Part shown: positions 16,472-23,093 of the stretch, piece after piece
Layout of the letters: every line of letters begins with the position of its first letter
Position numbering within the stretch: the first letter of the stretch is position 1
Source: Thermogemmata fonticola
GTDB taxonomy: Bacteria; Planctomycetota; Planctomycetia; Gemmatales; Gemmataceae
Direction of reading: 5' to 3'
Length of the DNA: 64,000 nucleotides
Assembly (NCBI RefSeq): GCF_013694095.1
Contig: NZ_JACEFB010000001.1
Coordinates: 124,001-188,000, forward strand
Translations under genes and position numbers: made by a program
Notes under the pieces: generated by a model
The model's database searches: none
Told to the model about the DNA's origin: nothing
Seen by the model: the letters and a program-made list of their open reading frames with translations, nothing else

Positions 16472-19400
16472 CTAGCGGGATGGTCCTGAACGGGCCATGT
16501 TGAGCCTATCGAAGAGCGGCCGATCGGCAGCATGGATTTGGCGGGGTTCCAGGCCATGCTTGAGGGCCAGGGCGAAAGCCTCTTGAGCTTGTGAGGTCTG
16601 AGGCGGCGACTGCTCGAGATGCAGAATGGCCTTGTGGAAGTAACGTAGGGCGGTGGCCTCCAAGCGCAAGGCTTCCTGCAAGTCTTGCTCCGCTTCGGCC
16701 CACTGCTTCAAACTGATGCGTGCCCGGGCGCGGGTGTCGAGCAGATCACCTGTCAGGCCGACCTTCTGGATCGCGCGATTGACGAGTTGAAGAGCCTTTT
16801 GCGCCTGTTGGGGATCGGCGGCCAGCAACCACGCCAAGTTATTGAGCACGATAACCTGATCCGGGAATTCCTGTAGCAGGAGTTCATACTCACGGATTGC
16901 TTGTTCCAACTCATGACGCAGAGCATGATATTCCGCACGATAGAGCCGCACTGTCACATTCCGGGGTTCCTGTTGCAGGGTCTGATCGATCCACAGAAGA
17001 ACACGCGATGCCACCGCTTCGCTGACTTGGGCATTGCGCACCAAGGCCAAGCCGGCTCCTGCTCGCACCTGCCCAGATAGGAAGGGTTCCAGACGTTGTA
17101 ACTGTTCGAGGGCTTGATCCACGCGACCGGCATAAGCCAGCAGACCCACTAGGCCGATGGCAGCTTCCGGATGTTGTGGGACGAGCGCGGCATAGCGTTC
17201 CACAGCGGCCTCAATCATCGCCTGACCGGCGGGGCTATTTCGCACTTGGGGCAAGCGGACCAATTCATCGAACAATGAGGCGACTTGTCCCATGCGAGTC
17301 CAATAGTCCCCGCTGTTGCCCTCGGCGGCATAGGCATAACGTTCGACCCACTGCTGGGCTTTGTCTACTTGGCCGGATCGGCACCAGTACCGGGCCAGGA
17401 CCGTGATGGCGCGCCAATCTGCGCCGTGGCGGAGTTCTAAGCGTTTGGCAAAAGTTTCCGCCGTCTCGTACTCCTCGGATTGGATCAGCTCTTCCAGGGC
17501 TGCGACCAGGTAATGCAGATTGTCGGGATCGTTGTTGAGCAGGGTTTGCAAGCAGCGGCGGCTTTCCGACCGGCGTCCCATCAGGCGGTAGAGCTGAGCC
17601 AGATCGTAAAGGTCTTTAGGGGCTTGACTTTTGCGCCAGGCTGCCTCCAAGGTTGATGCGGTCCGTTGCAGCAAGTGTTGCCGGGCCTCGCCGTCGAGAA
17701 AGCGGCTCAAGGTAGCGAAGACCTGGGCGGTGGCTCGCAATTCCGCCGCACTGGCCCCCTCATCCTCACGCGTTTGCTCCAAAAGATGGGCTGCTTGCTT
17801 GCGGCCCGCCTCAGTGCCTTGCAGGACATAGAGCAGTGCTAGTTGCCTCTGAGCCCAGACTCGCTCGCTGCGCTCCCGTGCCGGATGCCGGAGATAATCC
17901 TCCAGCAGTGTGATCGCCTCCGAATGGCGTTGTCGAGCCAGTTTCAGACTCAGCCTCGTTTGAAGGTAAACCCGCCGTTCCTCCGTACTCTCCAAGGCAT
18001 TGATATCGGTCCCATCGGGAGCAGAAGCCGAGAGCGCCTCCCGCAGTACAGCCAGTGAGGCGGCGTAGGTCGAGCCGGACAGTTTGGTCCGTGCTGCCTG
18101 CATTTGCTCCGGTCCAAGTATCAGGGCGGCGCGCAGCCAATCGTCGGCATTCGCCCGACGGCTTTGAACAGCTTCGCGGAGCAGGGCAGTCGCTTGGGGA
18201 AGTTGCCAGCGTGCTGCAATTTCGCCCAGCCAACTGAGGCCGCCGGCTTGCCGCTCGACCAAGGGGCGTAATTGGTCGATTGCCCAAGCCCGCTGTTCCG
18301 CGGGCAGGGAAGCCACCAGTGCCTGAATCATGCGCCGGATTGCCAAAACTCCCCAACGGGGATCGCAGCGCAGGCGTTGGATGACCGCTTCCACGCGGGT
18401 CGTATCCTGACGCATAAGTAATTGGCGGAGCCACTCGTATGCCACAGCGAAATGAGTGGGATGCCGCTGGAAGGTACTGGCGAGTAAACGCGCGGCCTGC
18501 TCGTGCTGCTCCATCTGCTGGTGCAAGCGAGCCAGAGCGAGAGCTGCATCGGGCTGGCGGGGCAGGGGACCGAAGCGGGTGGTTAGACGCGACAGCAACT
18601 CCGCCGCTGCGGAGCGATCGGCATCATAGGCTTGACAGAGAAGTACATGTTCACCATCCGGCCCTAGTCGCTCCAATAGTACCTGATACGCTTTTTGAGC
18701 GATGGATTTCTGACCGGTTTGGACTCCCTTCTGGTATAAGCGCAGCCATAGCGTAGGGTCTTGCGGACGGCGTGCGGCCAGTTGTTCCAACAGGGCGATG
18801 ACCTGGGATGTCTCCTCGGCCACCTCGAAGACATCGAGCAAACCGTGGAGCAAGCGAATCTGATCCCCGTCTGTCCAGCTTTCGACATGCTGGCAGAGCG
18901 TTAGCAAGGGCCGCATACGCCCCGGTTCGGAAACCATGATCGATCCGCGACCAAGCCGAATATCGAGTTGATCTCCACACGCGGCTTGAGCTTCTTCAGC
19001 CACTCCTAACGCCGCCGTACTGCCTTGCCACTCGGCTGTGGTGTGGATCAAGGCCAGCCAGAGGGGAATGTCGTTAGGCCGCCGTCCCAATTCGCGGCGC
19101 AACCGCTGGACCGCCTCGGCATATCGGCCCTGAGCACGCAGCACCTCGGACTGCAAAACCGCCGGTTCGCTACTGGACGGTGGAAAGCGGTTCGCCACCT
19201 CCTCAGCCACTTGTTCCAGACGCCGCCATTCGTCCGCTTTTCCCTGGTTGCAACGCAACAAGTGAGCTTGAAAGCGTACCCAATGCGCGACAATGGGACC
19301 CGACGAATAGGGGGAGTGGGCTGCTTGTTCCCACACCCGTTCCGCATCAGCGAATCGCCCGGAGTCGAGATAGAGTTGTCCCAATCCATGCAAAGCTTGC

Positions 19401-20677
19401 ACATTGTGGGGTTCGACAAGTAGGACGCTTTGGAAGGATTTCTCCGCTTCTTCCCGTTCTCCGATTTGTTCCGCACATACCGCGCGTAGGAGGTGCAACT
19501 GTATCCCCAAGGCCGTTAGGCGTTGCACCTCTGGCTGTAACTGGTCGATCAGTCGCATGGCTTCCGACCAGTTCTGATCACGCATCGCCAATCGGATTTG
19601 CAAATAGCGCCGGGGAATCGCGGCTGTGGAAGAACTCGGCAAGCGGCGGAGGATCTCCGCAGTTCGTGCCTTGTCCCCTTGTTGGATCAGCAGGTCTGCC
19701 AAAGGAATGAGCAAGTCCTGGGCTTCGGGAAGTTGCCGCAAGCCCTCTTCCAGGATGGCGATGGCTGCGGGGATGTTGCCACGACTGACTTCAAGCCAAG
19801 AAGCGGCTCGCACAACACGTATCTCGCGCGGATACAGATGGCGAGCTTCTCGTAGCAGATACTGAGCCACATCCCAGCGGAAGCGTCGCTGATAAATCTC
19901 GGCCAATAGCAGAGTCGCTTCGAGATTTTCTGGGTCCAACTCGCAGACTCGCTGCAAATGCTTTAGGGCGACGCCGCTATCCCCGCCCCCCGCGGTGCTG
20001 TCCTCCGCCAAGTACGTTTCAAACCGCGCCCGTGTTAGATGGGCTTCTGGGTCGGATGGTATAGCCTTGACCATCTGTTCCAGGACTTCCCGTGCTGCCG
20101 AGGGGTCATTCAGATTTCGCCACAACAATTGAGCCAACCGCTGGTAGGCGAGCAATTCCTGAGGAGCTAGTTGCACGGCTTTTTCATAACAGCGGCGAGC
20201 TTCAAGCAGCCGGTTCAAGCCAGCTTGGGCGGCTCCCAATTGCTGCCAAAGTAGTGGGTCTTCGGGGTAGGTCTTCAGCAGGGTTTCCGCATGGACCAAG
20301 GCATCGGAATAGCGGCCAATCCGCAGAGCTGTTGCCAGTGCTTCCCGGCGGATATCGTGACGTTGGGGGTCGGCGTGCAGAATCTGATCGTACAGGAAAA
20401 GCACTTCCGCGAGTGTGCGCCCTTGGGAGTGGCGCTGCCGTAGCAGTTGGGCCAAGCGGATTCGGGCCTCGACATCGTCCCTGCGAAACTCCAGATACTG
20501 GCGGTAATAATGGATGGCAGCATCGAGCCGATGTTCGTCCTCGGCCCGCTGGGCTTGTGTCAAGAGGGCTTCGGGAATCCGTTCGGCCTGCAACTGATGC
20601 AAACCCCACAGTGCCCCCGTGAACAGGAGCAAGATGAGGGTCAAACGGATCAGGAAGCGCTTGTTGATTGTCGGCAT
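16472..20677 (-). CDS. Large membrane-anchored tetratricopeptide-repeat protein
   Basis: The 1401-residue product has one N-terminal hydrophobic segment (FLIRLTLILLLFTGALWGL, residues 8-26) and then TPR-type helical repeats through almost all of the rest. Recognisable units include AEDEHRLDAAIHYYRQYLEF, LLWQQLGAAQAGLNRLLEAR and ALHGLGQLYLDSGRFADAERVWEQA. The segment is more like an uncleaved anchor than a signal peptide, so most of the protein should lie outside the inner membrane as a protein-interaction scaffold. It is downstream of two HtrA-like genes on the same strand, after a 195-base gap, which weakly suggests an envelope quality-control theme. No enzymatic domain is seen. Confidence 0.88.
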   Translation of the reverse strand: MPTINKRFLIRLTLILLLFTGALWGLHQLQAERIPEALLTQAQRAEDEHRLDAAIHYYRQYLEFRRDDVEARIRLAQLLRQRHSQGRTLAEVLFLYDQILHADPQRHDIRREALATALRIGRYSDALVHAETLLKTYPEDPLLWQQLGAAQAGLNRLLEARRCYEKAVQLAPQELLAYQRLAQLLWRNLNDPSAAREVLEQMVKAIPSDPEAHLTRARFETYLAEDSTAGGGDSGVALKHLQRVCELDPENLEATLLLAEIYQRRFRWDVAQYLLREARHLYPREIRVVRAASWLEVSRGNIPAAIAILEEGLRQLPEAQDLLIPLADLLIQQGDKARTAEILRRLPSSSTAAIPRRYLQIRLAMRDQNWSEAMRLIDQLQPEVQRLTALGIQLHLLRAVCAEQIGEREEAEKSFQSVLLVEPHNVQALHGLGQLYLDSGRFADAERVWEQAAHSPYSSGPIVAHWVRFQAHLLRCNQGKADEWRRLEQVAEEVANRFPPSSSEPAVLQSEVLRAQGRYAEAVQRLRRELGRRPNDIPLWLALIHTTAEWQGSTAALGVAEEAQAACGDQLDIRLGRGSIMVSEPGRMRPLLTLCQHVESWTDGDQIRLLHGLLDVFEVAEETSQVIALLEQLAARRPQDPTLWLRLYQKGVQTGQKSIAQKAYQVLLERLGPDGEHVLLCQAYDADRSAAAELLSRLTTRFGPLPRQPDAALALARLHQQMEQHEQAARLLASTFQRHPTHFAVAYEWLRQLLMRQDTTRVEAVIQRLRCDPRWGVLAIRRMIQALVASLPAEQRAWAIDQLRPLVERQAGGLSWLGEIAARWQLPQATALLREAVQSRRANADDWLRAALILGPEQMQAARTKLSGSTYAASLAVLREALSASAPDGTDINALESTEERRVYLQTRLSLKLARQRHSEAITLLEDYLRHPARERSERVWAQRQLALLYVLQGTEAGRKQAAHLLEQTREDEGASAAELRATAQVFATLSRFLDGEARQHLLQRTASTLEAAWRKSQAPKDLYDLAQLYRLMGRRSESRRCLQTLLNNDPDNLHYLVAALEELIQSEEYETAETFAKRLELRHGADWRAITVLARYWCRSGQVDKAQQWVERYAYAAEGNSGDYWTRMGQVASLFDELVRLPQVRNSPAGQAMIEAAVERYAALVPQHPEAAIGLVGLLAYAGRVDQALEQLQRLEPFLSGQVRAGAGLALVRNAQVSEAVASRVLLWIDQTLQQEPRNVTVRLYRAEYHALRHELEQAIREYELLLQEFPDQVIVLNNLAWLLAADPQQAQKALQLVNRAIQKVGLTGDLLDTRARARISLKQWAEAEQDLQEALRLEATALRYFHKAILHLEQSPPQTSQAQEAFALALKHGLEPRQIHAADRPLFDRLNMARSGPSR

Positions 20678-20872: not shown

Positions 20873-21955
20873 TCACTTATCTTGTCCGTTTTTTTCGTCT
20901 TTACGAGGTGGAGTGGAGGTGGAAGTTCCAGAGGAGGACGGCGCGAATTTGCCCGCTTTGAACTCGGCTATCAGCGGAACAATAATCTCCGCCGGCAGAA
21001 CATGGGTCTCGACCCGCCCGGCGCGAGCAATACACAAGCCGAGGACATTGCCATCGAGGTCCACTACAGGTCCGCCGCAGTCGCTGGGCTTGAGGAACAT
21101 ATCGGTTTGTAGAATCAGTGGAAAGCCGGTCCGCCGACCGGAGAGTGTTCCGCCTAAGCGATTCTGAATATCGCTACGATCAGGCATGGTTTGTTCGCCG
21201 AGTGTGACTTCGACAGTGTGTTCCTTTCCGTCACGCAAGTATGTCACCCGAACCTTATCGTTAGGGCGAGAATTTTCCAAAGCATCGCGTAGGGCTTGCC
21301 GTCCCGGTGTTTTCACTCCGTTGACGGCGACGATGATATCCCCTTCTTTCAGGCCAGCTTTGGCCGCCGCGCTATTCCGCTCGACGCGGGTGACCTTCGC
21401 CCCAATCACCTTCCCCGTGTCATCCGTCGGGTCTTCCGCCGTCATGAACACACCCAAATAGCCGCGATTGAGATTGTCGATCATGGCGTCAGGACCTGTA
21501 GGTTTACGGGTGACCGCACTGACAATCCCCACCGCGACCGGCTCGCTTTTGATGTCAATAGCTGCGACCCAAGCTCCAGGCTTGACCTTCCGACTGTCTC
21601 CGAAACGCAGCGGTTTGAGGTTACGCACATCGACATGGAGCATCGCCAAATCCGTCGGCCGATGCGATCCCACAATCCGAGCTGGAAACTCGGTGCCATC
21701 CACGAACCGGACCGTGATATTCTCCCCGGATCGTAATTCGCTGGCCTTGGTTAAGATGTAACCGTCTGCGGCAACAATTGCTCCGATCGCCACGTCCTGA
21801 TCATTGACCCGCACGCGTACTGTAGAGTCCCGTACAGGCTCAATCACGCTGCGGAATGGGGCTAGCAAGCGGGAGTTATTGGACAGTTGCGCCCACCCCG
21901 GTGCGGACCACAACCCAGCAATGGCGAGAGCAAACAGGAAGCGATACATCATCAT
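20873..21955 (-). CDS. HtrA-like pseudoprotease with PDZ domain nested in the protease fold
   Basis: The 360-residue exported protein has signal peptide MMMYRFLFALAIAGLWSAPG. Its fold is split: residues 40-160 resemble the first HtrA barrel half (GAIVAADGYILTKASEL, PTDLAMLHV, GIVSAV), residues about 163-253 form a PDZ domain (GYLGVF... AAAKAGLKEGDIIVAVNG), and residues 278-330 resume the second barrel half (LILQTDMFLKPSDCGGPVVDL). The catalytic positions read Ser72 for His, Asp102 kept, and Cys293 for Ser, so serine-protease activity is not expected. ATG 21955, with TGAGG upstream, is a better start than 22024 because it begins the signal peptide and avoids overlapping the upstream gene. It lies 58 bases after an intact HtrA gene. 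Confidence 0.82.
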   Translation of the reverse strand: MMMYRFLFALAIAGLWSAPGWAQLSNNSRLLAPFRSVIEPVRDSTVRVRVNDQDVAIGAIVAADGYILTKASELRSGENITVRFVDGTEFPARIVGSHRPTDLAMLHVDVRNLKPLRFGDSRKVKPGAWVAAIDIKSEPVAVGIVSAVTRKPTGPDAMIDNLNRGYLGVFMTAEDPTDDTGKVIGAKVTRVERNSAAAKAGLKEGDIIVAVNGVKTPGRQALRDALENSRPNDKVRVTYLRDGKEHTVEVTLGEQTMPDRSDIQNRLGGTLSGRRTGFPLILQTDMFLKPSDCGGPVVDLDGNVLGLCIARAGRVETHVLPAEIIVPLIAEFKAGKFAPSSSGTSTSTPPRKDEKNGQDK

Positions 21956-22013: not shown

Positions 22014-23093
22014 TTAACTGCCACCGGGACGCCGACCGAGTTTCACGGACAGCGTCATGATGGTCGTGCCCCGGCGGATCGTCAGCTTGATTTCATCCCC
22101 GGGTTTATATTTCGCCATCATTTCTCGAAATTGTTTCACGGATTTAATTGGCTGGCCATTGAACTTGGTGATAGTGTCTCCCGCTTTCAGGCCCGCTTGA
22201 CCCGCCGGGGTGTTCGGCTCCACTTCTTCCGTAATCCAGGCATCGTCTTCCTCGTCGTCCGGGAACACCACCCCCAGGAATGGTGGACTCTGTGCAGGTT
22301 GACCGGGTCGCGAAGGCCGACCCACAACTTCGCCAGCCACCAAAGCCTTCCACTCCATTTGGAATTTCTCGATGGGAACATGGATGTTCTGATTTAAGGT
22401 CAAACCAATGCGGCTATGGATACCCACGACTCGGCCATCCAAGTCAAAAAGCGGACCTCCCGAATCTCCGCCTACGAGGGCACAGTTGGTTCTGACCAGC
22501 TCGGAAATGACATTTTCCACGCGCCCCAAACGAGCTACGGGCGGCCGATCCGTTTTCGGACCGCCGGGATGTCCCAATGCGACCACCCATTGACCTCGCT
22601 TCAACTCCTCGGATTTGCCCAACGGGACGGCTGGCCATTTGCCCCCAATCGGACCAGGATCCGTGATTTGGACCATCCCCGCATCGGTTTTCGGATTGAT
22701 CCCCAACGTCTTGCCATTCACTTTCCGTCCGTCCGATAACACGATCTTGCAGGCACGCCCAGCTTTGTAGTCCGCACCCTTGGTGAAGGGACTATCACCC
22801 GCAATCACATGGGCGGCCGTCAGAACCAAGCCATCCTCGCTGACAATCACACCGCTGCCGGCTCCGATGCCGATGAGTATGCCCACCGTCGAGGGGGTGC
22901 ACTTTTCGATGACCTGTTGAACCCGATTCTGCAAAGCACGCAGTTGTGAGACATCGGTCGGAAAATCAGTGCGATCTGTTGGCCAAGTGGTGTCTTCAGC
23001 CACAAAAGCCCCCGATCGGGTTGGCAGCAAGGCAATACCCAGCCCCAGCACCGCAAGGGCTTGGATCATGCGCCACTTCATATGTGGGATCAT
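22014..23093 (-). CDS. HtrA/DegP-like serine protease with one PDZ domain
   Basis: The 359-residue exported protease belongs to the trypsin-like S1C group. The N-terminal hydrophobic segment (ALAVLGLGIALLPTRSGAF) is a signal peptide or anchor. The triad is complete: His95 in LTAAHVI, Asp137 in KTDAGMV, Ser211 in VGGDSGGPL. A PDZ domain occupies about residues 270-352 (PAGQAGLKAGDTITKFNGQPI). AAGGAG stands six bases before the ATG. The family degrades or refolds damaged envelope proteins. It is followed on the same strand by the triad-less paralogue, so the two may act together. Confidence 0.92.
   Translation of the reverse strand: MIPHMKWRMIQALAVLGLGIALLPTRSGAFVAEDTTWPTDRTDFPTDVSQLRALQNRVQQVIEKCTPSTVGILIGIGAGSGVIVSEDGLVLTAAHVIAGDSPFTKGADYKAGRACKIVLSDGRKVNGKTLGINPKTDAGMVQITDPGPIGGKWPAVPLGKSEELKRGQWVVALGHPGGPKTDRPPVARLGRVENVISELVRTNCALVGGDSGGPLFDLDGRVVGIHSRIGLTLNQNIHVPIEKFQMEWKALVAGEVVGRPSRPGQPAQSPPFLGVVFPDDEEDDAWITEEVEPNTPAGQAGLKAGDTITKFNGQPIKSVKQFREMMAKYKPGDEIKLTIRRGTTIMTLSVKLGRRPGGS

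Follow-up and report, generated by a model that had tools for sequence, protein, structure and literature searches.

A catalytically dead HtrA paralogue with a PDZ domain nested in its barrel, a candidate regulatory partner of an intact HtrA in planctomycetes

Bacteria, plants, and humans all use HtrA proteases to sense stress. In Thermogemmata fonticola, a 64,000-nucleotide stretch of contig NZ_JACEFB010000001.1 (positions 124,001 to 188,000), referred to here as the window, carries two neighboring genes of this type. An initial annotation described one of them as an HtrA paralogue with a PDZ domain inside its barrel and a lost catalytic triad, and suggested that it pairs, as regulator or scaffold, with the active HtrA directly upstream. 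Is this a real gene, and do its two half-barrels close around the PDZ domain? If the protein is no longer a protease, what might it do beside one that is? Here we investigate this gene, its relatives, and its neighbor. All coordinates are those of the window.

The open reading frame, which had been described without a strand, lies on the minus strand at 20873–21955 and encodes 360 aa, with an ATG at 21955 and a stop at 20873. Its translation, its Pfam matches, and an AlphaFold2 model identify an HtrA-fold pseudoprotease with a nested PDZ domain. There is an in-frame alternative start, GTG at 22024, which is less likely since a Shine-Dalgarno-like GAGG precedes the ATG by six bases and the signal peptide begins at this ATG. 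This Sec-type signal peptide, MMMYRFLFALAIAGLWSAPGWA (residues 1–22; 21890–21955, minus strand), was read by eye from its hydrophobic core and GWA cleavage motif. A chance reading frame is excluded by 217 relatives and by a layout that is kept in all of those examined. The possibility of a decayed pseudogene was rejected, as the frame is intact and there are invariant residues in 109 relatives; the comparison with the nearest relative (L102; dN 0.19, dS saturated) also counts against it. Scanning for promoters and terminators gave a signal no higher than that in shuffled sequence. Downstream on the same strand is a gene for a 1401-aa TPR-repeat protein (16472–20677), which is not conserved beside the pair in relatives.

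The domain borders that had been proposed for the protein are borne out. The first half-barrel (residues 40–160; 21476–21838, minus strand) contains Ser72, Asp102, and Arg150 and has modeled strands over residues 45–150. Pfam Trypsin_2 matches this N-terminal half only (58–150) and is followed by a PDZ match at 165–252. The nested PDZ (residues 163–253; 21197–21469, minus strand) lies within loop L3 and is recognized both in the model and by PDZ_2 (E 4.6e-17, from about 163/165 to 252). The second half-barrel (residues 270–338; 20942–21148, minus strand) contains Cys293 and a conserved IARAGR; its residues 282–298, LQTDMFLKPSDCGGPVV, correspond to the HtrA motif that surrounds the catalytic Ser. 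Thus, there is no PDZ C-terminal to the protease domain, the only position for it being mid-barrel. The NCBIfam Do-family model gives the protein 140.7 bits against a cut-off of 416.2. When HMMER was run against solved DegP-like HtrA chains, query residues 52–150, 280–308, and 162–268 matched chain residues 94–195, 204–232, and 267–375, respectively, and the non-linear order of these three blocks indicates a relocated PDZ.

Does the barrel close? An AlphaFold2 model of the window pseudoprotease, computed with 73 relatives, has a pLDDT of 90.1 and a pTM of 0.82 and contains an HtrA-type double beta-barrel, with VIA-align Z scores of 22–25 to HtrA chains. Model residues 32–337 align with the barrels of AlgW (Z 24.6, rmsd 2.0 Å, 184 residues) and MucD (Z 24.6, 2.3 Å, 181 residues). 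This range covers both flanks of the PDZ, which indicates that the C-terminal segment completes the barrel. In the predicted structure the PDZ is therefore truly nested between two half-barrels of a closed barrel, and the suspicion that the C-terminal piece might not complete the fold is answered. Homologues without the insertion, which would have spoken against the arrangement, were not found among the 109 sequences on which our family alignment counts rest; in all of them 108–147 residues separate the columns of Gly143 and Gln283, and the insertion bears a PDZ in 109/109.

These relatives make up an old, coherent family of dead HtrA paralogues with a nested PDZ, mostly from Planctomycetota, with a few records labeled Verrucomicrobiota. 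A single-sequence query found them in 27 of 246 genomes of the phylum and a profile in 33; the 217 relatives come from a scan of the GTDB collection, of which 80 were retained. No Pfam or NCBIfam model names the family. In a tree of the barrels the pseudoproteases form one fully supported branch and their partners another, and the arrangement has changed between fused and separate genes at least 3 times. The single pseudoprotease branch points, within these data, to one origin of the nested architecture. Whether the nested PDZ derives from that of the partner was addressed with a tree of 84 columns, which gave no resolved branching. Two contigs titled Akkermansia muciniphila (L133 and L136) have the pair, whose other carriers are planctomycetes and environmental Verrucomicrobia; these record names look doubtful.

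The residue assignments for the active site proved exact. The His position is occupied by Ser72 (codon 21740–21742, minus strand), Asp102 is kept (21650–21652, minus strand), and the Ser position is occupied by Cys293 (21077–21079, minus strand), leaving no His-Asp-Ser triad. The catalytic His and Ser are missing in every relative examined. Ser72, Asp102, and Lys70 are each present in 109/109 sequences; Cys293 is present in 103/108, being otherwise Met, Val, Gln, or Ile and never Ser. Arg311 and Arg314 are found in 108/108 family members and His284 in 101/108. Across the alignment the catalytic machinery is thus replaced in a fixed way, His always by Ser and Ser mostly by Cys. The window copy has peculiarities of its own: residue 284 in the QHD motif, nearly always His, is Thr, and residue 308 is Cys instead of Asn, a Cys present in only two of 108 relatives. 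Cys293 and Cys308 may form a pair in members that have the latter.

The gene for the intact HtrA, said to be directly upstream, is indeed there. It encodes 359 aa (22014–23093, minus strand; 58 bp from the pseudoprotease) with a short L3, a C-terminal PDZ, and an intact triad of His95, Asp137, and Ser211. An intact HtrA is directly upstream on the same strand at 81 of the 109 loci, mostly within 100 bp and often overlapping. At 16/109 the two are fused in a single chain, while the window copies are separate genes. No partner is within reach at the remaining 12, three of which have <1 kb of upstream DNA. The initial annotation had called for a search of planctomycete genomes for the same domain order next to an intact HtrA; the two are adjacent or fused at 97/109 loci, and all 97 partners have H-D-S. 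The next most conserved neighbor is found at only 14/109 loci, and an operon with further genes was rejected on this basis. In family f26, the fused proteins (L058:4902-7784, L169, and L170) have two tandem PDZ domains inside the nested insertion and additional ones between the active barrel and the dead one. A Thermoguttaceae fusion (L066:4272-6524) has a long Lys/Glu/Gln-rich extension after the pseudo-barrel, probably a coiled-coil, and one pair is directly followed by a third HtrA/PDZ-like open reading frame (L117:5907-6998).

The association extends to genomes in which the genes are apart. Five genomes have an unlinked pseudoprotease copy and all have the partner type elsewhere, and in two genomes of the same class that lack the pseudoprotease the partner is likewise absent. 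Among the 246 genomes of the phylum, 33 have the pseudoprotease, 44 the partner, and 32 both (Fisher 4e-29, uncorrected for kinship). The sole pseudoprotease genome without a counted partner (G046) has a fusion that scores below the cut-off. The 12 partner-only genomes comprise six with weak matches near the threshold and six in family f26, whose long open reading frames, judged by their length, probably resemble the fusions of that family. When a Thermogutta natural fusion was folded, two complete barrels and the PDZ were predicted in one chain (pLDDT 93.1, pTM 0.74; whole-chain scores only). The pairing of dead and active HtrA is therefore well supported by gene order, natural fusion, and co-occurrence even when unlinked.

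Loop L3, into which the PDZ is inserted, suggests what the pairing may be for. In HtrA1 this loop comprises about residues 298–310, 18–30 residues before Ser328; it takes part in an L3-LD relay between subunits in which Arg302 is essential (PMC5666011). In the window pseudoprotease, Arg150 (codon 21506–21508, minus strand) matches HtrA1 Arg302 by position and is aligned by HMMER to an Arg of the DegP-like chain. It is seven residues past the conserved strand Gly, and the PDZ begins about 15 residues further. The L3 Arg is found in 98/109 pseudoproteases, in 4/4 ordinary HtrA paralogues of the source genome, and in only 5/97 partners. The strand Gly and the catalytic Ser are 21 residues apart in 85/97 partners and 32–34 in the four ordinary paralogues; the partners also have an LD region of fixed length with invariant Arg183 and Arg188. 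At the level of sequence, then, the HtrA relay is divided between dead and live proteins, each having the half that the other lacks. Among pairs in which the pseudoprotease is one of the 11/109 without the relay Arg, 4/10 partners have a longer L3, versus 5/87 of the others (Fisher p 0.006, uncorrected for kinship). A tendency for L3 to be longer in partners of Arg-less pseudoproteases is only suggested by these counts. Since the L3 Arg is kept in the dead protein and L3 is lost in the partner, allosteric regulation seems more likely to us than a passive scaffolding role.

On balance, and with moderate confidence, we propose that the pseudoprotease is secreted and acts as a regulatory subunit of the upstream HtrA without being proteolytic itself, with sensor and blade on two gene products. 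By sequence and model, the HtrA barrel and the L3 Arg are retained in it, as is a PDZ whose ligand-binding loop is recognizable. The partner is its complement, with an intact triad and a conserved LD loop but a shortened L3 that has no Arg. We infer a relay mechanism from these features. Dead and active subunits would join through their barrels into a mixed oligomer, and a misfolded or C-terminal peptide ligand would bind the nested PDZ. With ligand bound, the PDZ would then push the dead subunit's L3, including Arg150, onto the LD loop of its active neighbor, and the neighbor's oxyanion loop would become ordered. The sensor and blade of a normal HtrA would thus have been divided over two genes and re-fused in some lineages. 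Some observations count against this proposal. Separate partners retain a PDZ of their own and might therefore be regulated on their own, a 1:1 pairing is at odds with a simple trimer, and 11/109 pseudoproteases are without the relay Arg. A stricter form, in which an obligate mixed ring has catalysis in the L3-less subunit and L3-PDZ sensing in the dead one, with the PDZ ligand as the only on-switch, is possible and is put forward more tentatively.

Might the dead HtrA instead be an adaptor? As a substrate receptor, it would bind client C-termini through its PDZ and hand them over by tethering, with no L3 relay. The same adjacency, fusion, and co-occurrence would be expected, the PDZ is present in all members, and many fusions have the pseudo-barrel following directly on the partner barrel, which leaves the nested PDZ as the sole PDZ of the chain. 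However, an adaptor leaves unexplained why the L3 Arg is kept in the dead protein (98/109) and lost in the live subunit, and why the dead active-site region is so strictly conserved; we consider this role rather unlikely. Even less probable is a structural scaffold, in which the pseudo-barrel only builds the oligomer and the PDZ serves cage assembly. Here the model is plant DEG7, in which active and degenerated HtrA domains cooperate and the inactive domain mediates trimerization (PMC3473262), and the natural fusions are likewise ordered with the active barrel before the inactive one. A plain scaffold, however, needs neither a PDZ in L3 nor a relay Arg, and the active-site remnants are conserved beyond its requirements. 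It is very improbable that Cys293 acts as nucleophile in a rebuilt cysteine protease together with His284, Lys70, or Ser72. These residues are conserved (103/108, 101/108, and 109/109 for both Lys70 and Ser72), but residue 284 is Thr in the window copy, Cys is replaced by Met, Val, Gln, or Ile in five members, and no base stands in for the catalytic His.

The regulatory subunit that we favor can be compared with known systems. In magnetotactic bacteria, MamO is an HtrA-fold pseudoprotease that activates the active HtrA MamE non-catalytically (PMC4794232). As in the window pair, a degenerate triad in an HtrA fold is encoded with an active HtrA, and by analogy the window pseudoprotease would work most like MamO among known systems. 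However, MamO keeps its His and has Thr for Ser, whereas the window family has Ser for His and Cys for Ser. MamO also requires a TauE transporter domain for activation, and no PDZ is mentioned in the text of that paper (PMC4794232), whereas the window protein has a PDZ nested in L3 and ends after the barrel, with no TauE Pfam match. The 16/109 relatives that join active and dead barrels in one chain resemble DEG7. Unlike the family, whose PDZ is nested throughout, fusions included, DEG7 has the order PD-PDZ-PDZ-PDia-PDZ-PDZ with none inside a barrel; it is one chain, whereas the window pseudoprotease is a separate gene. By the features tested, the window pseudoprotease belongs to neither the MamO type nor the DEG7 type. 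With HtrA, DegP, DegS, and AlgW (peptidase family S1C) it shares the double beta-barrel, PDZ, secretion signal, and L3 arginine, yet these have the triad and a PDZ after the barrel. Insect clip-domain serine protease homologues are inactive trypsin-fold cofactors of active proteases; they belong to another, eukaryotic family without PDZ, and the likeness is in role only. The parts of a survey of microbial PDZ proteins consulted here report high copy numbers in planctomycetes and do not contain the nested-PDZ layout (PMC6411480). Open-licence papers, a body that leaves most subscription journals outside, yielded no literature describing an HtrA with an inserted PDZ, or an HtrA pseudoprotease from planctomycetes.

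Signaling from L3 to LD runs between identical subunits in HtrA1 and DegS, and identical subunits make the passage of the PDZ signal to the next active site hard to dissect. In these pairs sensor and blade seem to be on different polypeptides, so that each step could be mutated separately, and the signal-carrying loop itself tolerates an inserted PDZ. The proposal also provides a hypothesis of function for a family, mostly of Planctomycetota, that has no Pfam or NCBIfam name.
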